From the NCBI RefSeq assembly GCF_009695545.1, contig NZ_VUNS01000008.1:124001-188000 (forward strand): 64,000 bases of DNA, in the 5' to 3' direction. Both the position numbers and the translations under genes were made by a program. The notes under the pieces were generated by a model. It was not told the origin of the DNA and made no database searches. It saw only the letters and a list, made by a program, of their open reading frames with translations. The first letter of the stretch is position 1. The number at the start of each line of letters is the position of its first letter. Source of the stretch: Victivallis lenta (GTDB lineage Bacteria > Verrucomicrobiota > Lentisphaeria > Victivallales > Victivallaceae). Below, one piece after another: positions 2,165-40,104 of the stretch.

Positions 2165-2275
2165 ATCCGCCGCATGGCGCGTTCCCTTCCGAAAACACGA
2201 TCCTTATGCACGTTCATGCAACAGGCCGGCCGGGAATTCCATCCGAATCGCCGATTCGGTTTGTGAACTTCGCCG
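2165..2275 (+). repeat. Degenerate copy of the A repeat of the 36-37.7 kb array
   Basis: The 370-nt gap 1930-2302 holds a decayed copy of the A unit seen three times at 36.2-37.6 kb. The matching stretch includes CTTATGCACGTTCATGCAAC (in the array TTTATGCGCATTCGCGCAAC) and CCGAATCGCCGATTCGG followed by TTTGTGA. The 7-bp stem of that palindrome is intact and only its loop differs. The promoter-like head of the unit is not recognisable here. A small 8-bp stem (GAGCTTAT/ATAAGCTC, 2280-2301) abuts the miaB stop. Confidence 0.7.
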
Positions 2276-2302: not shown

Positions 2303-3649
2303 TTACTCCTGCACCAGCTCGCCGAAGAGCGAAACGCTTCCGGCACGCGTGATTTTCACCCTTCGCAGCGTCCCCGCCTCCAAATCCGGCTCCGGCAGAA
2401 AATGGATCACCCGATTCGTCCCGGTGCGTCCGCTCCAACGCTCCGGATTGCGCGGGCTCGTCCCTTCCACCAGCACCTCCTGCACCGAACCGACCTGCCG
2501 CCGCAACGCCGCTTCGACCCGCGTCTTCAAATCGGCGAGCAGCAGCGCATTGCGCTCCTCCTTCACCTCCTGCGGCACCGAATCCTCCTGCGCCGCCGAC
2601 TTCGCCCCGGGACGCGGCGAATACTTGAAGATGAAGCTGTTGTCGAACCCGATCTCATTCATCAGCTCCCGGGTCAGGCGGAAATCCTCATCGCTCTCCC
2701 CCGGGAAACCGACGATCACATCGGTCGAAAACGTCACATCCGGCATGGCCGTCCGCAGCGCGGCGGCCACCGCCCGGTAGCCGTCCGCCGTATACTGCCG
2801 GTTCATCGCCGCCAGAATGCGGTCCGAACCGGATTGCAGCGGCAGGTGAATATTGTGACAGACCGTCCGGCTTTGCGCAATCGCCGCAATCAGCCGGTCG
2901 TTGAAATAGGTCGGATACGGCGAAGTGAAGCGAATCCTCAGCAGGCCCGGAATCCGGTCGAGCTCTTCCAGCAGCTCCGCGAACGGCGAAACTCCCGCCG
3001 GCGGAGGATTCACGTTCCCGCCCCACCCGTAAGCCGCCACATTCTGCCCGAGCAGCATGATCTCCTTCGCGCCGCCCGCAACCAGTTCGCGCGCCTCGGC
3101 AACCACATCCGCCGGCTCCCGGCTGATCTCCCGGCCCCGCACATACGGCACAATGCAGTAACTGCAGAAGCGGTTGCAGCCGCGCGTGATCGCAATCTGA
3201 GCCTTGAAATTCATCCCGTCCCCTTCCGGCCGGTAATGACTGCCCATCCCGGTCAGCACATCCGCCGATTCCGTGATCGACGCAACCTGCCGCCGGTCGG
3301 CACGGATCGACTCGATCAGCGGCACAAGCGTGTGAAGCTGCCCGGTGCCGAGCACGAAATCAAGGTGCGGCAGCTCGTTCAGCAGTTCGTTCCCGAGCCG
3401 CTGCGCCATGCAGCCGAGCGCGCCGATCACCAGCTCCGGTTTTCGCGCCTTGAGCTTCCGCATATAACCGATTTTGCCCTTCGCCTTGCGTTCGGCCTGC
3501 TCGCGGACGCTGCAGGTGTTGAAGAGCAGCACATCCGCCGCCTCCTCCGAATCGACCATCACGTGACCGGCTTCGGTCAGCATTCCGGCCAGCGCTTCGG
3601 AGTCGCGCTCGTTCATCTGGCAGCCGTAAGTTTTGATATGGATTTTCAT
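2303..3649 (-). CDS. miaB: tRNA-2-methylthio-N6-dimethylallyladenosine synthase MiaB
   Basis: This 448-residue radical-SAM enzyme adds a methylthio group to i6A37 of tRNAs. The N-terminal MTTase domain carries its three cluster cysteines (C10 in KTYGCQMN, C46 in FNTCSVR, C80 in LGCMAQ). The radical-SAM cluster motif is C158-x3-C162-x2-C165 in RGCNRFCSYC, and a TRAM domain ends the protein (VLVEGTSPRNPERWSGRTGT region). Length and all six cysteines fit functional MiaB rather than MtaB or RimO. Its start overlaps the proB stop by 4 nt, so the two are co-transcribed. Confidence 0.95.
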   Translation of the reverse strand: MKIHIKTYGCQMNERDSEALAGMLTEAGHVMVDSEEAADVLLFNTCSVREQAERKAKGKIGYMRKLKARKPELVIGALGCMAQRLGNELLNELPHLDFVLGTGQLHTLVPLIESIRADRRQVASITESADVLTGMGSHYRPEGDGMNFKAQIAITRGCNRFCSYCIVPYVRGREISREPADVVAEARELVAGGAKEIMLLGQNVAAYGWGGNVNPPPAGVSPFAELLEELDRIPGLLRIRFTSPYPTYFNDRLIAAIAQSRTVCHNIHLPLQSGSDRILAAMNRQYTADGYRAVAAALRTAMPDVTFSTDVIVGFPGESDEDFRLTRELMNEIGFDNSFIFKYSPRPGAKSAAQEDSVPQEVKEERNALLLADLKTRVEAALRRQVGSVQEVLVEGTSPRNPERWSGRTGTNRVIHFLPEPDLEAGTLRRVKITRAGSVSLFGELVQE

Positions 3650-4776
3650 GGGATATTCAAGGTCAGGTTGTCGCGGTGAATCACTTCCTCATCCACATTC
3701 GGCCCCAGAATCGTGTGGACCTGCGCCGACCCCCGGCCGCAGATCTGCAGGCAGTCGGCCGCATCGAAGTTGACCAGCCCGCGCGCGAACGGAACGCCGT
3801 CCGGACCGGAAATCTCGACCGTGTCCCCGCGCTTGAACGCACCCGACACAAACTTCACCCCCGAAGGCAGCAGACTGCGCCCCTGCTCCCGGACCGCCTT
3901 CGCCGCCCCCTCATCGACCAGCAGAGAGCCGGAAACCCGGCTGAAAAAACTGATCCAGCGCTTGCGGCCCGGAATCCGGCGGGCCCGCGGCAGAAATACC
4001 GTGCCGATGTCCTCCCCGGCCAGAACCTTTTCGAGCGCCCCCTTCTCGCGGCCGTCCGCGATCCAGAGATACTCGCCCGCGGCGGTCACAATCTCGGCGG
4101 CGTGCAGCTTCGAACTCATCCCGCCGATCGAAAACTCCGAATTGTCGGTGCCTCCGGCCATCGCACGGACCGATTCGGAAAGCTCCTTCACCACCGAAAT
4201 CCGCTTCCCGAGCGTGCCGTCCTCATTGCGTTCGCGCAACCCCTGCTCGGTGGTCAGGATCACCGTCAGCCGGGAATCGGTAATCGAGGCGAGCATGCCG
4301 GCCAGCGTGTCGTTGTCGCCGAACTTCAGCTCGCTGACCGACACCGAGTCGTTTTCATTCACGATCGGCAATACGCCGGCATCCCAGATCGCATTCACGC
4401 AGTTCATCACATTCAAATAACGCTCGCGGTTCCGCAGATCGGCGGCCGTCAGCAGCAGCTGCGCGGTTTTGAAGCCTCGCTTGCGGCACTCCGCGTCATA
4501 GATCGCCATCAGTCGGCTCTGGCCGATGGCCGCCAGCGCCTGTACCTGCGCCAGCTCCTTCGGACGCCTCTTGAGCTCAAGGGCCCGCATCCCCATGCCG
4601 ACCGCGCCGGAGGTCACGAGCAGAACCCGTTTGCCCGCCCGCCGCAGAACGTCGATGCCGGAAACCAGCTCGGCAATCGCCTCCTGACTCGTCAACAGCC
4701 GCGTTCCGGCCTTGACCACCACCTGACGGGCGCTCTTCAGGAGCTCCCGCCGCACCGCAAGATTGTTCTCATCCAT
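3646..4776 (-). CDS. proB: Glutamate 5-kinase ProB with PUA domain
   Basis: The 376-residue protein phosphorylates L-glutamate in the first step of proline synthesis. The amino-acid-kinase domain shows VVKAGTRLL, TSGAVGMG and the substrate loop VNENDSVS. A C-terminal PUA domain (about residues 280-365) is present, as in the long bacterial form. A canonical proA neighbour is absent; instead the gene is fused transcriptionally to miaB by a 4-nt overlap. Confidence 0.93.
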   Translation of the reverse strand: MDENNLAVRRELLKSARQVVVKAGTRLLTSQEAIAELVSGIDVLRRAGKRVLLVTSGAVGMGMRALELKRRPKELAQVQALAAIGQSRLMAIYDAECRKRGFKTAQLLLTAADLRNRERYLNVMNCVNAIWDAGVLPIVNENDSVSVSELKFGDNDTLAGMLASITDSRLTVILTTEQGLRERNEDGTLGKRISVVKELSESVRAMAGGTDNSEFSIGGMSSKLHAAEIVTAAGEYLWIADGREKGALEKVLAGEDIGTVFLPRARRIPGRKRWISFFSRVSGSLLVDEGAAKAVREQGRSLLPSGVKFVSGAFKRGDTVEISGPDGVPFARGLVNFDAADCLQICGRGSAQVHTILGPNVDEEVIHRDNLTLNIP

Positions 4777-4824
4777 GATTGTTCCAGATTGAAATCGTTG
4801 ATAAATCGCGGGTAATATACACCT

Positions 4825-6723
4825 TCAACGCACGACTTTCAACAGCCGGTAGCGGCCGCTCCCCGGAACCGGCACGAAAAGAAGCTTTTCTCTTTTCAGG
4901 AGCTCGAGAAAATGCAGCGTCAACTGCTCGTTCTCCCGGTCGAAATCCGAAATCGGGTCCGGGTTGCGCGGAGATTCGCCGCCGACCAGAATCACGATGT
5001 AATCGACTCCGCCCCGCACAAGCTCGCCGTACGCCTCTTCCGGCGATCCCGGAACCGGCGTGAAAAACGCCTCCTGGAAGAACGGGGTGCCCAGCACGCA
5101 GCGGCGCGGCATGTAAAGTCCCCGGCGGTCGAACACCAGCATGACCTTCGCCTCCTCCGGAAGCGTGCGGCCGATATAGTCGAGCAGATTCGCATACTCC
5201 TTTTCCCGGTCCGCAAAACGCAGAAAGTCGGCGGGCGCCTGCCGGGCGACCGGCATGGAGCGCCAGGCGTAATAGAAATTTTTCCAGACCTCGGGCTGAA
5301 ACGACAGAAGCGTCGCCGCCGCAATGACGGCCAGGGCCGCATTGCGCCACCGCACCGGCAGCCAGGCCAGACCGGAGGCCGCCAGAAACAGGACCGGAAA
5401 GAAAAGCGGCAGGATAAAACGCGCCTGCTGCGAACTCACGCACCAGTACAGGTAAAAGAGAACGCCCCCGGCCGCCGCCCAGAGAAACGCCAGTCCCTTC
5501 CGGCGGAAACGCCGCGCCGCCCAATACCAGGCGAACGCGCCGATTGCCAGCATCACCGGGAATTGCCAGCCGAGCACATAACCGTCATAAATCTCCCTCC
5601 GGTAAGCGACAATAATCCACGAGGAGAAGAAACTCCCGATGCCGGCCAGCCCGAACCGGCTGGTTCCCAGCAGAGAATGGTAGACCTCCACGGCGGCGGC
5701 CGGAGCGGCCGGGTCGATATATGCCGCCCCGAACGGATAGAACGGATTCCCGGTCGCCAGCAGCGGCCGCAGGTAAAACGGAACCGCCGCCGCCAATCCC
5801 GCCGCCGCAAACCAGGCAAAGGCGAAACCGGCCCGCCTGCGCGGCACCCGGTCGAACGCCAGAACGCAGAAGAAGAGGCAGAGCAGCGCGAGAGAGGCCG
5901 CGCCTCCGGTCAGCTTCACCGCCGCCGCCATGCCGGCAAAGAAACCGGTCAGCAGCGCCAGCGGCAGCAGCCGGCCGCGAAACACGCGGACCGCCTGCGC
6001 CCCGGCCAGCAGATTCAGCAGGATGAACGGCTCCAGGTAAACCTCGCGCCACATGCCGCCGGTCAGCGGGGAGAGCAGAAACGCGGCGGTGAGGACCAGC
6101 GCCGTCTTCCGGCCGAAGCGGAGCAAAAGCAGATAAATCCACGGAACCGCAATCAGGCAGCAGCCCAGCACCAGCAGCCGCGGAAAATTCACTCCGCCGA
6201 GCCGGACGCCCCAGAGCATCAGGAAGTGCGGCATCGACGACAAAGCCGAATAAGGGTTGTCCGCAACCACCGCCGTGGACCCCTGCTCCAGATACCGGTA
6301 CATCAATGCGACCTGATAGGACTGCTCATCCCACGAAAACGGCGGGACGAAGGCCGGAGCGGCGGTGATCCCGGCCAGAATCAGCACGCCTCCCCAGAGG
6401 ACCCACTCCTCCCGGCCGAAGCCAGCCGCTCTCCGCGCCAGGCGGCAGGTGCCGTAAACGGCCGGAACAGCCGCAGCCCCGTACAGAACTCCGGCCGGAA
6501 GATGAATGACGGCATAATCCCCCAGCCGGAAAACGACCGCCAGCAGATCGAGTCCGGCGACCAGTGCAAGAAGCCCGCTCCCCGGATGCGCATCCTTCCG
6601 GCATCCAAGCTTCTCCAGCAGCAGGCAGCCGATCCCGTAAGCGGCAAGCAGCAGAATCAGAAACGCCGCCGCCGGCTCATACCATGCGCCCTGCATGGCT
6701 GCAATCAATTCGTTCAGAGTCAT
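4825..6723 (-). CDS. GT39/ArnT-like multispanning membrane glycosyltransferase
   Basis: The 632-residue protein has about 10-12 hydrophobic segments in its first 480 residues. The first periplasmic loop carries PPFSWDEQSYQ, the acidic catalytic motif expected of GT-C (dolichyl-phosphate-mannose-type, PMT/ArnT) enzymes. The last ~150 residues are soluble and end in GSGRYRLLKVVR. It should transfer a sugar from a polyprenyl-phosphate donor on the outer face of the cytoplasmic membrane; the acceptor is unknown. It overlaps the O-antigen-ligase-like gene by 4 nt, which places it in surface polysaccharide or glycoprotein assembly. Confidence 0.7.
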   Translation of the reverse strand: MTLNELIAAMQGAWYEPAAAFLILLLAAYGIGCLLLEKLGCRKDAHPGSGLLALVAGLDLLAVVFRLGDYAVIHLPAGVLYGAAAVPAVYGTCRLARRAAGFGREEWVLWGGVLILAGITAAPAFVPPFSWDEQSYQVALMYRYLEQGSTAVVADNPYSALSSMPHFLMLWGVRLGGVNFPRLLVLGCCLIAVPWIYLLLLRFGRKTALVLTAAFLLSPLTGGMWREVYLEPFILLNLLAGAQAVRVFRGRLLPLALLTGFFAGMAAAVKLTGGAASLALLCLFFCVLAFDRVPRRRAGFAFAWFAAAGLAAAVPFYLRPLLATGNPFYPFGAAYIDPAAPAAAVEVYHSLLGTSRFGLAGIGSFFSSWIIVAYRREIYDGYVLGWQFPVMLAIGAFAWYWAARRFRRKGLAFLWAAAGGVLFYLYWCVSSQQARFILPLFFPVLFLAASGLAWLPVRWRNAALAVIAAATLLSFQPEVWKNFYYAWRSMPVARQAPADFLRFADREKEYANLLDYIGRTLPEEAKVMLVFDRRGLYMPRRCVLGTPFFQEAFFTPVPGSPEEAYGELVRGGVDYIVILVGGESPRNPDPISDFDRENEQLTLHFLELLKREKLLFVPVPGSGRYRLLKVVR

Positions 6724-32732: not shown

Positions 32733-34479
32733 TTACCGTGCTCCGTTCCGCGATTTTGGCTTCGATGGCAGCTTCCTGATCCTTGAACTCCTGCGTGTCC
32801 ATGGCGAGATAGTTGAGGTCCATGAACATCTGGCGCAGGTTCAGGAAATAGCTGCGGGCGGTATCTTTGTCCGGCAGCGAGAAAGCGCCGGAGAGAACCT
32901 TGTAGATCCGGTCGAACATGTATCGCTGGCGTTCCGCGCTGGTGGCGCCGTCGACGTCGTCGAAGGTGTTCTGCTGCAGATAGACGTAGTCGAGGAATTC
33001 GCTCTTCAGATAGACGACGAAGTCGTTCAGGCTCGTTCCCTCCTCACCGATGACCTTCATCATCTGGTTGACCTCGGCGCCCTGCCGCAGAATGCCGCGC
33101 GCGAATTCAACCTCCTTCTGGTCGACCACGCTTTTGTATTTGCTCCAGCTGTCGAGCGGGTGGATCGCCGGGTAGCGGCGCGCGTCGGAACGCTCGCGCG
33201 AAAGCCCGAGGAATGCGCCGACCACCTTCAGCGTCGCCTGCGTCACCGGCTCTTCGAAGTTGCCGCCGGCCGGAGAAACCGCGCCGCCGATGGTGACCGA
33301 CCCGAGTTCACCGGTCCGCAGCTTCACAAGCCCGGCACGTTCGTAGAAACCGGCGATCAGCGACTCGAGATAGGCCGGAAACGCCTCCTCGCCCGGAATC
33401 TCCTCAAGGCGGCCGGACATTTCGCGGAGCGCCTGCGCCCAGCGCGAGGTCGAGTCAGCCAGCAGAAGGGTATTGAGCCCCATCTGGCGGTAATATTCGG
33501 CGAGCGTCACCGCCGTATAAACCGACGCTTCACGCGCGGCCACCGGCATTGAGCTCGTGTTGCAGATGATGATCGAACGGTTGATGAGCGGCTGGCCGGT
33601 GCGCGGGTCCTCGAGCTCCGGGAACTCGCGCAGGATCTCGACGACTTCGCCCGCCCGCTCGCCGCATGCCGCGATGATGACCACGTCGGCTTCGGCATAG
33701 CGGCTGATCGCGTGCTGCAGAACCGTCTTCCCGGCGCCGAACGGCCCCGGCGTACAGAAGGTTCCGCCGACCGCAACCGGGAAAAAGGTGTCGATGGTCC
33801 GCTGCTGGGTCACGAGCGTCTTCTCCGGCAGCAGCTTTTCCGCATAGTCGGAAATCGGAATCTTGACCGGCCACTGCTGGGTCATCGTGATATTCCGCTT
33901 CTCGCCCTGTTCATTTACGGCGACGGCCATTACGTCGTCGATCGTGTATTCACCGGCGGGCGTGACTGATTCGAGCGTCCATTCGCCCTTCCAGGCGAGC
34001 GGAACCATGATATAATGCCTGATGATGCCTTCCGGCACGAAACCGACGCGGTCGCCCGGACGGACCTTGTCGCCGGCAGCGGCGACCGGCGTATACGCCC
34101 ACTTCACCGTACGGTCGAGCGCGCGCAGATAGACGCCGCGCTGCAGGAAGAAGCCGGACTTCTCCGCCAGCAGCGGCAGCGGATTCTGCAGCCCGTCATA
34201 AACCTGGGTCAGAAGGCCGGGACCGAGCTCGACCGAAAGCAGTTCGCCGGTGAATTCGACTTCGTCACCGACCTTGAGGCCGTTCGTGCTCTCGAATACC
34301 TGCAGGTCGGCGCGGTTGCCGCGGACGCGGATGACTTCGCTTTTGAGCTTGGTGTCGGCGTCGTCGCCGACGCGGGCGAACGCCACTTCATTCTGCATGA
34401 CGCGGTCGGTGAATTCAATGGTGATCATATTCCCATTGACCGCGACCACCTTTTCAGTGTTCTTCTTACCCTCTGCCAT
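32725..34479 (-). CDS. atpA: V-type ATP synthase subunit A (catalytic)
   Basis: The 584-residue catalytic subunit has the Walker A motif GPFGAGKT at 245-252, the extra non-homologous region (about 110-200) that separates V/A-type A subunits from F1 beta, and [20 protein letters not shown]. It hydrolyses or makes ATP, with H+ or Na+ as coupling ion; the ion cannot be inferred without the K subunit. GGAGTTTC upstream of the ATG. Confidence 0.95.
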
Positions 34480-34510
34480 TTATTGAAACTCCTGACTCAA
34501 ATGGATGTTA

Positions 34511-35065
34511 TTACTCGTTGCCGGAGGCGGCTCCGCCTGCGATGCGGTCGACTGCCGCGTTGAAGTTCGACCGTCCCTTTTCCACGCTGCGGCCGCGGTA
34601 CCGATTCAGAATCTCGAGCCGGAGCCGGTAGACGCAAAGCCCGTCAAAATCGAATTCATGCCCCGCTTCGAGGTCGTCGAGCATGCGCCAGCGGATGCGG
34701 TCGACGGCCTTTTCCCGCTCGACCGGGTCGGAAACCGCGGCCAGCGCCCCCATGGCGGCATCGACTTCGCCGAAATAGAGTTCGGGGTCCGGGAGATGGA
34801 CGGCCCGCTCTTCATCCCTGCCGGCGCGGCGCTCGGCGATGCGGGTCCGCAGATACTGTTCGAACCGGGCATAGGCGGCATAGACGGGCGGAAGTCCGGC
34901 GGCGGAGCCGGGCTCCCTGCCGACCCGGAGCGAGCCCTGCTTCAACCGGGCCAGCGCCCCGGGGGTCATCTGACCGGCGCAGAGCTCGTCGAAATCGGCA
35001 ACGCTCATGCCGGGGTCCCTGCCCAGGGCCAGGCCCGGCAGAGAAGCGGAAAGAAAGTAGTACAT
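34511..35065 (-). CDS. DUF2764 family protein of the V-ATPase operon
   Basis: The 184-residue protein starts MYYFLSASLPGLALGRDPGM, the signature of DUF2764, a family found between E and A subunit genes in Chlamydiae, Bacteroidetes and relatives. It is helical and acidic, with a central RWRMLDDLEAGHEFDFDGLC segment. It is assumed to be a stalk or assembly component replacing subunits C/F, which are missing here; no biochemical function is established to my knowledge. Confidence 0.85.
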   Translation of the reverse strand: MYYFLSASLPGLALGRDPGMSVADFDELCAGQMTPGALARLKQGSLRVGREPGSAAGLPPVYAAYARFEQYLRTRIAERRAGRDEERAVHLPDPELYFGEVDAAMGALAAVSDPVEREKAVDRIRWRMLDDLEAGHEFDFDGLCVYRLRLEILNRYRGRSVEKGRSNFNAAVDRIAGGAASGNE

Positions 35066-35093
35066 GGTTCGCCGTCCCGTTTCGCTTGAACTG

Positions 35094-35696
35094 TTATTCG
35101 CCCTTCAGGATCGACGCCAGCCGGGGGCCGATGTAGTCCGCGACAAGCTCGGTCACCGCTTCGCTGGTGAAATCGAAATAAACTTCGCCGTCCTTGAAAC
35201 TGACCTCGAAACCGCCCTTGATCCCGGAGTCGCCGAACACCTGCGGCGCATTCCGGAATCCGGCGGCCAGAGAGGCTTTCATGGCCTTGTCGAGTGCCGG
35301 AACGTCCTTGACGGCGGTAAGAACGGTGATCCGGCCGTTCGGATCGGTTGCGAATTTCGCAGCGAACTCCTTGATGAGGGAAGCCATGAATTCGGGAGTC
35401 AGCGCCTGGTCGGCGGCGGCGGAGACGGCGCGGGTCATACGTTTTTCAAGCTCCTGCCGGAGCTCGAGGATGATGTCGCGCGCGGCCTGGCGGACTGCCG
35501 CCTCGGCCCGTTTTTCGATGCCTTCGGCCTGTTCTTCGGCCTGCCTGACCGCCGCCTCGGCGTCGGCCTTCGCCTTCGCCCGGATCGCTTCGGCCTCTTT
35601 TTTCGCTTCGGCGATAATCCCGGCGGCAGTTGCTTCCGCCTCCTTCACGCCTTTTTCATTGATTTTATCGAGCAGACTCTGGAGTTTTTCCGCCAT
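35094..35696 (-). CDS. atpE: V-type ATP synthase subunit E
   Basis: The 200-residue peripheral-stalk subunit has an N-terminal Ala/Glu/Lys-rich coiled coil of about 85 residues (AAGIIAEAKKEAEAIRAKAK) and a globular C-terminal head (EVSFKDGEVYFDFTSEAVTEL). First gene of the operon E-DUF2764-A-B-D. An AT-rich leader with TTGCGA and TATAAG elements 16 nt apart lies just upstream but would place transcription very close to the start. Confidence 0.88.
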   Translation of the reverse strand: MAEKLQSLLDKINEKGVKEAEATAAGIIAEAKKEAEAIRAKAKADAEAAVRQAEEQAEGIEKRAEAAVRQAARDIILELRQELEKRMTRAVSAAADQALTPEFMASLIKEFAAKFATDPNGRITVLTAVKDVPALDKAMKASLAAGFRNAPQVFGDSGIKGGFEVSFKDGEVYFDFTSEAVTELVADYIGPRLASILKGE

Positions 35697-35895
35697 CTTG
35701 GTTGCCCCCGCTTATAAATACAGTTGTTTTTGTCGCAAATATTCGCTTGGTAATGTAGTTCCGAAACAATCTTTTTTCAAATAAGGAGTTCCGAAAATAG
35801 CGGAAATAACCGTTTTTTCCCGCGAATCTCCGACAAAGCGGCAAAAAGCGCGGCATGTGCCGCTGTAACATAAAAGCGCGGCATGTGTCAGTACA

Positions 35896-35955
35896 GTTCC
35901 CGAAAAGCACCCGAAGCTTTCGGGCGACGGGCCCAAAGACCCGGAACCGGGAAAC
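35896..35955 (+). repeat. Dispersed ~58-bp repeat, copy 2, with inverted ends
   Basis: The unit runs from TCCCGAAAAGCACCCGAAGC to GGAACCGGGAAACTGT, and its flanks ACAGTTCCCG and CGGGAAACTGT are imperfect inverted repeats. It matches the minus-strand copy at 26063-26120. Just to the left, AAGCGCGGCATGTG occurs twice in direct orientation (about 35846-35890), and AGTTCCGAAA occurs twice at about 35756-35797. Confidence 0.6.
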
Positions 35956-35959
35956 TGTG

Positions 35960-36240
35960 TTCAGGGGACCGCTCACAATGTTAAAATGCGCACTTCTGAT
36001 GCCACAACGCACCCGGCAGGGAGCGAAGCGACCGGGTTCAGGGCCATTCGGCCCTGGCGAGGTTCCAAGGGGCACGGAGCCCCTTGGCGGAGTCCGAGGC
36101 GGCGCCTCAGGTTGACCCGGGCGAAGCCCCTGCGCAAAAATCCGCAACGAAGTTGCGGTGCTTCGCCCGGTGTGAGCGGCGCGGCGGACGCCGCGGAGCG
36201 GTCAAAGGGTCTATCGCGTTGCAATCCCGGCTAACAAGGA
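35960..36240 (+). repeat. B unit 0 (degenerate head)
   Basis: The head has drifted to TTCAGG-16-TAAAAT (35960-35987). The hairpins match the later B units, including CAGGGCCATTCGGCCCTG, CCAAGGGGC/GCCCCTTGG, CTGAGGC-type and CCGCAACGAAGTTGCGG, and the optional GCGGC/GCCGC stem at 36177-36195. Confidence 0.8.
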
Positions 36241-36508
36241 TTGACCGGAGCCGCGAACATTGTTAAAATGCGAGCCGTCAATGTTGCAGACAGGGGGGAG
36301 CGCGCCCCTTCCGGGGCGCGGTCTTTATGCGCATTCGCGCAACAGACCGTGCGGGCTCCCCGTCCGAATCTTCGATTCGGTTTGTGAGCTGGTCGTTCCG
36401 CCCGCAGGCTGCCTCCGGCGGCCGGGGCGCTTCGCCCCCGGACCCCAGACCGGCAGGGTGCCGGTGCCGGCGGCGGCGAAGCCGCCTTGTAATTCCGGGC
36501 AACCATGA
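36241..36508 (+). repeat. A unit 1
   Basis: Head TTGACC (36241-36246)-17-TAAAAT (36264-36269). A predicted transcript would start near 36276 and meet GCGCCCCTTCCGGGGCGC (36302-36319) followed by GGTCTTT after about 25-45 nt. Further palindromes: CCGAATCTTCGATTCGG and GGGGCGCTTCGCCCC. Confidence 0.85.
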
Positions 36509-36775
36509 TTGACCGGAGCCGCGAACATTGTTACAATGCGAACCCTTGGTGTCACAACACGCCTGTGGGGAGCGCCTGCGCGACCGGGTTCAGGGCCTTT
36601 TGGCCCTGGCGAGGTTCCAAGGGGCGCGGAGCCCCTTGGCGGAGTCTGAGGCGGCGCCTCAGGTTGACCCGGGCGAAGCCCCTGCGCAAAAATCCGCAAC
36701 AAAGTTGCGATGCTTTGCCCGGTGTGAGCGGAGCGGTCAAAGGGTCTATCGCGTTGCAATCCCGGCTAACAAGGA
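36509..36775 (+). repeat. B unit 1
   Basis: Head TTGACC (36509-36514)-17-TACAAT (36532-36537). It lacks the 18-nt GCGGC/GCCGC stem present in B0 and B2, a clean deletion of one hairpin. Confidence 0.85.
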
Positions 36776-37044
36776 TTGACCGGAGCCGCAAACATTGTTA
36801 AAATGCGAGCCGTCAATGTTGCAGACAGGGGGGGAGCGCGCCCCTTTCGGGGCGCGGTCTTTATGCGCATTCGCGCAACAGACCGTGCGGGCTCCCCGTC
36901 CGAATCTTTGATTCGGTTTGTGAGCTGGTCGGTACGCCCGCAGGCTGCCTCCGGCGGCCGGGGCGCTTCGCCCCCGGACCCCAGACCGGCAGGGTGCCGG
37001 TGCCGGCGGCGGCGAAGCCGCCTTGTAATTCCGGGCAACCATGA
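36776..37044 (+). repeat. A unit 2
   Basis: Head TTGACC (36776-36781)-17-TAAAAT (36799-36804). Differs from A1 mainly in hairpin loops (GCGCCCCTTTCGGGGCGC, CCGAATCTTTGATTCGG). Confidence 0.85.
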
Positions 37045-37328
37045 TTGACCGGAGCCGCGAACATTGTTACAATGCGAACCCTTGGTGTCACAACACGCCT
37101 GTGGGGAGCGCCTGCGCGACCGGGTTCAGGGCCTTTTGGCCCTGGCGAGGTTCCAAGGGGCGCGGAGCCCCTTGGCGGAGTCTGAGGCGGCGCCTCAGGT
37201 TGACCCGGGCGAAGCCCCTGCGCAAAAATCCGCAACAAAGTTGCGGTGCTTTGCCCGGTGTGAGCGGCGCGGCGAACGCCGCGGAGCGGTCAAAGGGTCT
37301 ATCGCGTTGCAATCCCGGCTAACAAGAA
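37045..37328 (+). repeat. B unit 2
   Basis: Head TTGACC (37045-37050)-17-TACAAT (37068-37073). Nearly identical to B1 but retains the extra GCGGC/GCCGC stem (37266-37283). Confidence 0.85.
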
Positions 37329-37576
37329 TTGACCGGAGCCGCGAACATTGTTAAAATGCGAACCGTCAATGTTGCAGACAGGGAGGAGCGCGCCCCTTCC
37401 GGGGCGCGGTCTTTATGCGCATTCGCGCAACAGACCGTGCGGGCTCCCCGTCCGAATCTTCGATTCGGTTTGTGAGCTGGTCGTTCCGCCCGCAGACTGC
37501 CTCCGGCGGCCGGGGCGCTTCGCCCCCGGACCCCAGACCGGCAGGGTGCCGGTGCCGGCGGCGGCTCCGCCGCCTT
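37329..37576 (+). repeat. A unit 3 (3' end lost)
   Basis: Head TTGACC (37329-37334)-17-TAAAAT (37352-37357). The unit ends at GGCGGCGGCTCCGCCGCC instead of the usual tail. Confidence 0.8.
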
Positions 37577-37612
37577 GACCTTCACTTCATCATCTCTTCG
37601 GCCAACTTCAGC

Positions 37613-37692
37613 GTCGTTCCGCCCGCAGGCTGCCTCCGGCGGCCGGGGCGCTTCGCCCCCGGACCCCAGACCGGCAGGGTGCCGCCGCCTTA
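37613..37692 (+). repeat. Partial A unit (internal 80 bp duplicated)
   Basis: Copy of the segment CGTTCCGCCCGCAGGCTGCC through GACCGGCAGGGTGCC of unit A3 (from about 37478), displaced by about 135 nt and without a promoter head. It abuts the stop of the GT4 gene. Confidence 0.75.
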
Positions 37693-37708
37693 ACCGGCGC
37701 GGGCACGT

Positions 37709-38848
37709 TTACTTCAGCGTCTCCGCCACGATGCGGGAGATTTTATCGCGGAAGATCTCACCCGAAAAGCGCGCCGCGTTTCTTCGCAACTCCGCCGGCA
37801 GGAAACAGCGCCCCTTGAACTCCTCAACCGCTCCGAGCAGCGACGCTTCGCTCTGCTCGTCAAAAAACAGTCCCGTCCGGCCTTCCACAACGCTCTCAAG
37901 CGCGCCCCCGGCACGGAACGCGATGACCGGGCAGCCGGCCGCTTGCGCTTCAACCGGCACAATCCCGAAATCCTCGATCCCCGGAAACACCAGCGCCCGG
38001 GCCCCTGCGTACAGCTTCCGCAATGTCTCATCGTCCGGCGCCACGACGAATTCGACGTTTTTCCCGGCTATCGCCCGCAGCCTCGGCAGCTCCTCGCCGG
38101 AACCGGCCACAATCAGCCGGTCGTCAAGCCGCGAAAAAGCACGGACCGCAAGCTCCGGCCGTTTGTAGGCGGTCAACTGCCCGGCCAGCAGGAAATAACC
38201 GCGCTCCATCTCCGGCGCAGCCCCGAAGAAGCCGATATCCGCCGGAGGATGAACCACCTCCGCGTCACGCCCGTAAATCCGCCTGATCCGCTCGGCCACA
38301 AAACGGGAATTCGCGATGAAGCGATCCACGCATTCGGCCGATTCAAGGTCGTACCGCCGCAGCCGGTCGCGGAACAGCCGCATCGCCAGCCGCCCCGGCA
38401 GCGAGGCGTTCCGGTAATATTCGTCATAGAGGTCCCAGACATAGCGCATCGGCGTATGGCAGTAGCAGATGTGGCGGCAGCCGGCCGGCTTGCGGACCCC
38501 CTTCACCGGACCCGATTCGCTGCTGAACAGCAATTCGTATTCCGAAAAATCCCATCGTTTCTGGGCCGCCGGCATCAGCGGAAGGCAGCATTGGCAGAAA
38601 CGACGTCCTCCGGGGAGCCGCGCAATCATCGACTCGCGGATCGGATGGCGCGTGATCTCCGCCGACAGCCGGTCGCGGCAGCAGGCGTGCGTATAAATAT
38701 CCGCCTCCGGAAAAAGGCGGCAGAGCTGCTCGAATACCCGCTCGCCGCCACGCATGGCCACCAGCCAGTAATGCAGCAGCGCCGTCTTCTGTCCATTTTC
38801 CCGATCCACTGCTATCCGGCCCGTTTCCCTGTTATCGAAATGATCCAT
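37709..38848 (-). CDS. Family 4 glycosyltransferase
   Basis: The 379-residue GT-B protein has HYWLVAMRGGERVFEQL at the donor-cleft start, AGQLTAYKRPELAVRAF (the K of the R/K pair) and the C-terminal E-x7-E motif in GIEDFGIVPVEAQAAGCPVIAF. It probably adds a sugar to a cell-surface glycan on the cytosolic side. I placed the start at the ATG of 38848 because the -10 element of its promoter ends at 38863; the ATG at 38860 would lie upstream of transcription. No ribosome site is visible. Confidence 0.85.
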   Translation of the reverse strand: MDHFDNRETGRIAVDRENGQKTALLHYWLVAMRGGERVFEQLCRLFPEADIYTHACCRDRLSAEITRHPIRESMIARLPGGRRFCQCCLPLMPAAQKRWDFSEYELLFSSESGPVKGVRKPAGCRHICYCHTPMRYVWDLYDEYYRNASLPGRLAMRLFRDRLRRYDLESAECVDRFIANSRFVAERIRRIYGRDAEVVHPPADIGFFGAAPEMERGYFLLAGQLTAYKRPELAVRAFSRLDDRLIVAGSGEELPRLRAIAGKNVEFVVAPDDETLRKLYAGARALVFPGIEDFGIVPVEAQAAGCPVIAFRAGGALESVVEGRTGLFFDEQSEASLLGAVEEFKGRCFLPAELRRNAARFSGEIFRDKISRIVAETLK

Positions 38849-38862
38849 GCGAATTCGCATTC

Positions 38863-38891
38863 ACTATACATGAAAAGACGTCGTTTTACAA
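38863..38891 (-). promoter_or_regulatory. Promoter of the GT4 gene
   Basis: TTGTAA (38886-38891), 17 nt, TATAGT (38863-38868) on the minus strand. Confidence 0.6.
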
Positions 38892-38993
38892 ACAATCCGA
38901 AGCGAAAAGCGGGGGAATTCACCGGCAGAAGCAGAGATTTCCGCCGTATTTGCCGGAATGGAAAGAAAAAAACGAAAAAAATAATCTGCACGG

Positions 38994-39023
38994 TTGACAT
39001 AAGTATGGTTTTATTCCCATAAT
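38994..39023 (+). promoter_or_regulatory. Strong promoter with a ~380-nt leader for the prepilin-like gene
   Basis: TTGACA (38994-38999), 18 nt, CATAAT (39018-39023). The next gene begins at 39412, so the transcript has a long leader (about 39030-39411). It contains no convincing coding sequence and no riboswitch class I can name. Confidence 0.65.
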
Positions 39024-39411
39024 TAACTACAAAGGGTAATCGGCGAATTCGGAAGAGAAAATCACAACCGCGTATAATAATTAGTATGTCGTGCACATGC
39101 ACCAGAAGTTGTTGCTTTAATGCCCTCCTGCTTAAACGGTTGTTGTTTTTCGGCAAAATCCGGGTGATGGCGACTCTCCTGCTTTTCCGGCCTCCGGCGG
39201 CTGCAATGTTCCGGTTGTATCCTGTTCGCAATGACTGCATGTTTTATTCGGAGCTTCACGGGGGAAGATACTCCCTCCGCGCCCCATTTCTTACGCTCAT
39301 GCGGCGGATATGTCATCATACGGCGGTTCCCCCCTGCCGCGCTTTTTGCCGGGCGGCAATGAATCCGCCTCCGCTTCACTTATTAATTATTATGTGACGG
39401 AGGAAGGAAAC

Positions 39412-40104
39412 ATGAAAAAGAGTAGATTCACCTTGATCGAACTTCTGGTCGTTATTGCGATCATCGCGATTCTCGCGTCGATGCTGCTTCCGGCCCTGAA
39501 TCAGGCCCGCGAAAAGGCGCAGAGCATCAAATGCACGGGCAACGTCAAGCAACTGGCGCTCAATACCGCAATGTATGCGAATGTTTCGCAGGACTTCCTG
39601 CCCCGCGTCTGGAATCCGAATACGAATGAGATGTGGTTCGACCAGCTTTACAAGGCGGGACTGGTCCACAAACCGGTCAACGTAACAAACGAAAACAAGG
39701 ATGCCGTTACCGGAATCTTCGCCTGTCCGACCGAACTTCGGGCCCGGGAGACGCCGAACGGCACCACAACCCATTACGGCATGAACCGCATGGCCTGGAC
39801 CTGGAACTGTCAGCTCAAGACCGGACAGATCAAGCGCCCGACCATCACCGTCCTCCAATACGACACGGCGATCCATCCGAACTTCGACAACTACGTTTCG
39901 ACCACCGATCTGGCTTCGGCGAAAAACATCGCCGCCAACCGTCACAACAAGGATTCGGCACGCAATATTTCGTTTGTCGACGGTCATGTTCAGTTGATCG
40001 GCAAAGGCGAGGTCGCCCAGCCGAAGAAGTATATCTGGAAAATTTTCAAGTGGAACAACGGCGAATACTTTCCGGATGACGACAATGAAATCTGGGTTCT
40101 CTGA
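39412..40104 (+). CDS. Prepilin-like secreted protein with type II pseudopilin leader
   Basis: The 230-residue protein starts MKKSR then [18 protein letters not shown], a prepilin peptidase substrate. The C-terminal segment [20 protein letters not shown] is an H-x11-DG form of the processing-associated motif found in this family. GGAGGAAGGAAAC before the ATG fixes the start. It is followed after 21 nt by the 1,494-residue secreted protein, so the pair is an operon. This arrangement suggests that the prepilin-like protein serves the neighbouring carbohydrate-active protein at the surface (inference). Confidence 0.88.

Follow-up and report, generated by a model that had tools for sequence, protein, structure and literature searches.

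A probable BOX-like interspersed repeat with two folded modules and a promoter-like linker in Victivallis lenta

The tandem array described here, found in a 64,000-nucleotide stretch of the Victivallis lenta genome (the window), is probably the locally expanded form of a modular, non-autonomous, lineage-specific and non-coding interspersed repeat of the BOX/REP kind. In its basic element, a palindromic, promoter-like linker would join a B body to a following A body, each module being a chain of near-perfect hairpins. The repeat occurs in many copies across the genome, the arms of its hairpins change in a compensatory manner, it is preferentially located between convergent genes, and it lies at gene ends where relatives have no element. 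Modularity, dispersal, tandem expansion, enrichment in convergent gaps, the substitution of gene ends and a distribution limited to close relatives together constitute a BOX-type syndrome, and we classify the repeat as a new family of BOX-like kind, separate from the BOX, REP and Correia families proper. It appears to be an undescribed, abundant family in Lentisphaerota that combines two structure-conserved modules with a linker resembling a strong promoter; in the literature on Victivallis repeats and on structured RNAs of Lentisphaerae, we found no description of such an element.

The initial annotation of the window reported five successive units that each start with a sigma70-like head, and this layout was recovered exactly: units A1, B1, A2, B2 and A3 have heads at 36241, 36509, 36776, 37045 and 37329, all consisting of TTGACC, exactly 17 nt and either TAAAAT in A units or TACAAT in B units, the -10 being of the extended TG type. 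The A and B bodies are indeed unrelated (51% on a forced alignment). The array extends beyond these five units, with a further B unit preceding them and an A remnant following. The features are as follows.

35094-35696, minus strand: V-ATPase subunit E gene, flanking the array
35959-36240, plus strand: unit B0, with a diverged head or leader (TTCAGG-16-TAAAAT) and a B body at 36018-36212; 81.8-87.4% to B1/B2
36226-36249: linker palindrome before A1, CCCGGCTAA-N6-TTGACCGGA, 6/9 paired; the right arm includes the -35-like hexamer
36241-36508, plus strand: unit A1, head TTGACC-17-TAAAAT at 36241-36269, A body from about 36294 to 36489
36494-36517: linker palindrome before B1, TCCGGGCAA-N6-TTGACCGGA, 8/9 paired
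36509-36775, plus strand: unit B1, head TTGACC-17-TACAAT at 36509-36537, B body at 36567-36747
36776-37044, plus strand: unit A2, 97.8% to A1
37045-37328, plus strand: unit B2, 93.3% to B1
37329-37577, plus strand: unit A3, the last full A body, then CCTTCACTTCATCATCTC, as after other terminal A copies
37613-37684, plus strand: A remnant of 72 nt, corresponding to A body query positions 132-203, 100% identical
37709-38860, minus strand: GT4 glycosyltransferase gene, flanking the array
2198-2269, plus strand: isolated, diverged A fragment elsewhere in the window, 76%

The dimer spacing of 536 and 552 nt, together with the identity of A1 to A2 (97.8%) and of B1 to B2 (93.3%), shows that the array arose by tandem duplication of an A-B dimer, so that the identity of the heads within the window stems in part from recent duplication. 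Because the array lies on the plus strand and both flanking genes on the minus strand, it is antisense to both neighbours, including the GT4 gene, as had been noted. The V-ATPase operon and B0 diverge from a gap of ~260 nt (35700-35960) that holds a further inverted repeat, CCCGAAGCTTTCGGG. The units do not appear to encode proteins, in agreement with the initial annotation: the longest open reading frames within the array, including long ones on the minus strand, had no Pfam match, and the frames that start from the ATG in AATGCG are disrupted by small indels between copies, which led us to reject coding units. The statement that no named family fits likewise held, with no match of Rfam covariance models to positions 34000-40000 even at E up to 1; across six related loci, the same search yielded one weak, sub-threshold match outside the elements. 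Searches with A, B and the head in plasmid and phage collections and in viral contigs returned no match.

DNA searches and covariance models, the latter a check proposed in the initial annotation, returned matches to A and to B, about 30 of each, in the 5.5 Mb Victivallis lenta genome. Several contigs (C7, C14, C18, C49, C2, C3 and C20) begin or stop within or beside A elements, so the repeat breaks assemblies and its copy number is probably underestimated; the dispersed, near-identical arrays probably act as recombination sites as well. Genes were predicted around 20 array loci, which display the arrangements BBBBAA, BBAA, BBA, BABA, BBB, AAA and solo A. The B modules precede the A modules almost throughout (BABA occurs in two arrays), and the copy number varies among these dispersed intergenic sites.

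Under strict filters, the A model matched only Victivallis lenta and V. vadensis, 2 of the 137 genomes of the order, and a search of a named genome collection with the A-hairpin pattern had V. vadensis DSM 14823, of the same genus, as its sole match. The V. vadensis relatives of A are diverged in sequence and conserved in structure. In this species (loci L074-L102), many A units are followed by a two-hairpin module of the GCCTCCGGCGG..GACCGGCAAGGTGCCGG type, a spacer hairpin and an inverted module; some units are in tandem, about 330 nt apart. The B model detected weaker relatives in other genomes, including 22 copies in a single genome from a different genus. In that genome, B-like hairpins are located inside a ~330-bp element present in about 20 copies (loci L131 and L133, roughly 1390-1760). 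This element has clear terminal inverted repeats (GGCTNTGTACTAAACA..TGTTTAGTACACAGCC / GGCTNTGTACTAAACATAGACTGA..TCAGTCATTGTTTAGTACACAGCC) and looks like a typical MITE.

Both bodies possess a conserved secondary structure with compensatory changes. Among 41 distinct A sequences from the two species, 96.2% of the cells were paired and 20 of the 31 pairs had changed on both sides, with a covariation score of 0.372, against 0.136 for shuffles and <=0.061 for slid controls, a result biased towards structure because the alignment was fitted to its own model. The effect is also visible by eye, given that A arms are swapped consistently as wholes (TGCGGGC/GCCCGCA, TGTACGC/GCGTACA and TGTGCGC/GCGCACA types). 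For B, 8 of the 40 pairs had changed on both sides (score 0.157 vs 0.077). DNA hairpins, too, are compatible with these patterns.

The main alternative is that the array expresses small structured RNAs, each unit from its own sigma70 promoter, with A and B representing two trans-acting or protein-binding RNA species. Expression of A and B as small RNAs is possible, and we regard this explanation as a whole as tentative and unlikely. Several features of the bodies speak for it, namely, the strong covariation, folding z-scores of -3.1 and -2.6, and a GGTCT..AGACC stem that is strongly conserved between A types and across the two species and could reflect a specific RNA or protein function. Structured RNAs under selection on the plus strand tolerate G-U pairs far more often than A-C mismatches. 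In the helices, G-U is no commoner than A-C (G-T against A-C cells, all small counts: 9 to 16 for A, 5 to 5 for B and 10 to 25 for the linker). This speaks against selection as plus-strand RNA, and neither strand folds markedly better than the other. Small as these numbers are, they suggest either a process at the DNA level or a constraint that acts on either strand.

The promoter-like heads bear on this alternative from both sides. Within 2.2 kb, we found 11 promoter-like sites, compared to 0.3 +/- 0.5 in shuffles. Across another 240 kb of the genome, the pattern TTGAC-N(17-19)-TANNAT appears 5 times, and the rest of the window contains it once. Housekeeping-type sites of the form TTGACA-N17-TATAAT are present in the genome, the five window heads are near-consensus with extended -10 and 17-nt spacing, and the -10-like TAAAAT is kept in eight A heads outside the window in addition to all three within it. 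It is because of these eight A heads and the near-consensus heads of the window that the small-RNA explanation retains some plausibility. The initial annotation took the shared head to be the part of the units that had been kept or re-used; retention of the head by selection was not borne out. Across 11 A units with linkers, compared between arrays, the mean pairwise identity of the head (0.862) is below that of the body (0.923). Except in the eight A heads, the -35 and -10 hexamers are largely scrambled in homologous copies, which the initial annotation had named as an outcome contrary to its view: TACAAT is confined to B1 and B2 of the window, the corresponding position reads TTGAAT in eight of the nine B heads outside it, and solo A copies have TAAACT, TGGAAT, CGGAAT or nothing, most of them having neither hexamer. 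The first B of the arrays and the A elements of V. vadensis have no head. What stands of the proposal that the units are an expressed structured RNA array or a mobile promoter-hairpin unit is that they are structured and repeated across the genome; the promoter head as the selected part does not.

The sequence that A and B units have in common starts about 25 nt upstream of TTGACC. Since the head is missing both from the first B and from the sequence that follows the last A, the shared part is the linker between bodies, ~60 nt long, with the head as its right half. The linker arms, TCCGGTCAA-N6-TTGACCGGA, are perfect in seven linkers, all outside the window (9/9 paired), and form 6-8 of the 9 pairs in most others, including those of the window. 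The -35-like TTGACC is thus also an arm of a palindrome, which accounts for this hexamer without small-RNA expression. As a stem-loop, the window linker alone folds no better than shuffles; a less decayed linker (L054) has z = -7. The heads are good sigma70 look-alikes that may work in some copies, and preservation of a promoter is not the defining trait of the family. Under the BOX-like interpretation, the heads would be by-products of the linker, and some of them (the A heads and all five in the window) may drive weak transcription in the antisense direction to the GT4 gene. A promoter-like consensus can sit in a palindrome and be amplified through tandem duplication. A more specific version of the RNA explanation would make A and B two new Victivallis structured RNA families, expressed in tandem from their own promoters where read-through from upstream cannot serve the arrays, as in the window, and functioning in trans or as antisense to the neighbouring genes; we consider this rather unlikely.

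The genomic context of the arrays is best described from the gene ends. Convergent gaps harbour 11 of the 18 evaluable arrays, an over-representation given that 24 of 180 adjacent gene pairs sampled from the genome are convergent. Arrays are often located within 10-20 nt of stop codons, and four begin directly 3' of one. Comparison with orthologues shows that, in at least two cases, the element replaced the end of the gene and supplied a new stop: one protein ends in ..MQL-QQS (stop) where two relatives have ..MQL (stop), and another in ..DRL-QR (stop) where two relatives have ..DRLNTA(M/T)EQVGADARPAGEKR (stop). The new stop lies directly before the B start, GGGGAGCG, and the 5' end of the element, about GCCGACANNCGTAAGGGGAGCG, brings a stop codon. 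Elements positioned on gene ends in this way alter the C-termini of proteins. We suggest that the element is copied non-autonomously by an enzyme that recognises a folded single strand, lands at the 3' ends of genes, where its 5' end can give a new stop codon, and, being an untranslated, folded 3' extension, is tolerated at these positions; copies would then be multiplied in tandem through unequal recombination.

The gene-end position also raises the alternative that B and A are domesticated 3'-end elements which, between convergent genes, terminate transcription in both directions or stabilise 3' UTRs and are kept as replacements for ordinary terminators. The preference for convergent gaps and the proximity of many arrays to stop codons fit this explanation, as do the 13 terminator-like sites in the array (4.1 expected) and one locus where the equivalent junction in relatives bears a plain, terminator-like hairpin. 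However, a tolerated mobile element predicts the same preference, as has been argued for BOX (PMC3049150); arrays contain up to six units, more than a terminator needs; the terminal hairpins have no good U run; and three arrays or solo copies, the window array among them, are antisense between co-directional genes. Domestication as a 3'-end element is quite improbable.

Returning to the BOX-like interpretation, the locus with the plain hairpin is also informative with regard to recombination. The convergent pair that flanks this hairpin in two relatives is split in Victivallis lenta: a B array adjoins the left gene and an A copy the right one, the outcome predicted if dispersed arrays had recombined with each other. 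Among 16 other convergent pairs used as a synteny control, only 1 adjacency was conserved, so no general claim on arrays as rearrangement points is made; the idea that they are special in this respect was dropped as indistinguishable from the generally low synteny between the species. The orientation of arrays relative to genes was likewise dropped as evidence for RNA function because convergent gaps are symmetric and co-directional gaps are unbiased (4 sense vs 3 antisense).

Among the closest known systems is the pneumococcal BOX element, which is modular, folded, concentrated between convergent genes and almost confined to one species group, and is thought to be parasitic and non-autonomous and to affect co-transcribed genes through its folds (PMC3049150). 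BOX elements of S. pneumoniae and S. suis combine end modules with variable inner modules and resemble the A/B element in being folded, non-coding, multi-copy, located in convergent gaps and restricted to close relatives; they can also form 3' extensions of operons (PMC3049150). In contrast to BOX, the A/B element has an unrelated host, is GC-rich and has much longer modules (200-270 nt), arranged as B(n) followed by A(n) and connected by a palindromic linker that resembles a promoter; the likeness is one of kind, and membership in the streptococcal family is not claimed. Correia elements of Neisseria and other promoter-bearing MITEs are similarly dispersed, contain promoter-like sequence and can alter transcription of neighbours, but the B..A ends (5' about GCCGACANNCGTAAGGGGAGCG, 3' about CCGCCTTGACTTTTACTTCATTATCT) are not inverted repeats, no terminal inverted repeats are recognised, and the promoter is not preserved across copies. 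The STAXI motif and similar repeats are tandem, structured, non-coding units of uncertain RNA or single-stranded DNA nature (PMC2864571); A/B shares all of these properties, the uncertainty included, but differs in structure, and no Rfam model matches it.

REP/BIME/REPIN repeats with their RAYT transposases are comparable in being palindromic, extragenic and clustered in tandem, and the V. vadensis copies contain a short two-hairpin module that is repeated in inverted orientation. The A/B units are much longer and more complex, and no repeat-flanked RAYT was found. Inspection of the element ends revealed no GTAG or CGTC tag, and no mobilising enzyme for the A/B element was identified in the Victivallis lenta genome. 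This genome contains two Y1_Tnp genes, with no T-module in the 4.5-5.5 kb around each; a RAYT/REPIN system was rejected, given that these Y1 transposase genes are not flanked by the repeat. A separate locus (L141, contig C3:205500-211000) contains a small Y1-transposase-like gene (2520-3083) that adjoins a long open reading frame on the plus strand (3378-5501), the start of which, MSRILGLDVGTNSLGWAILDPFQKVF, is Cas9-like by eye.
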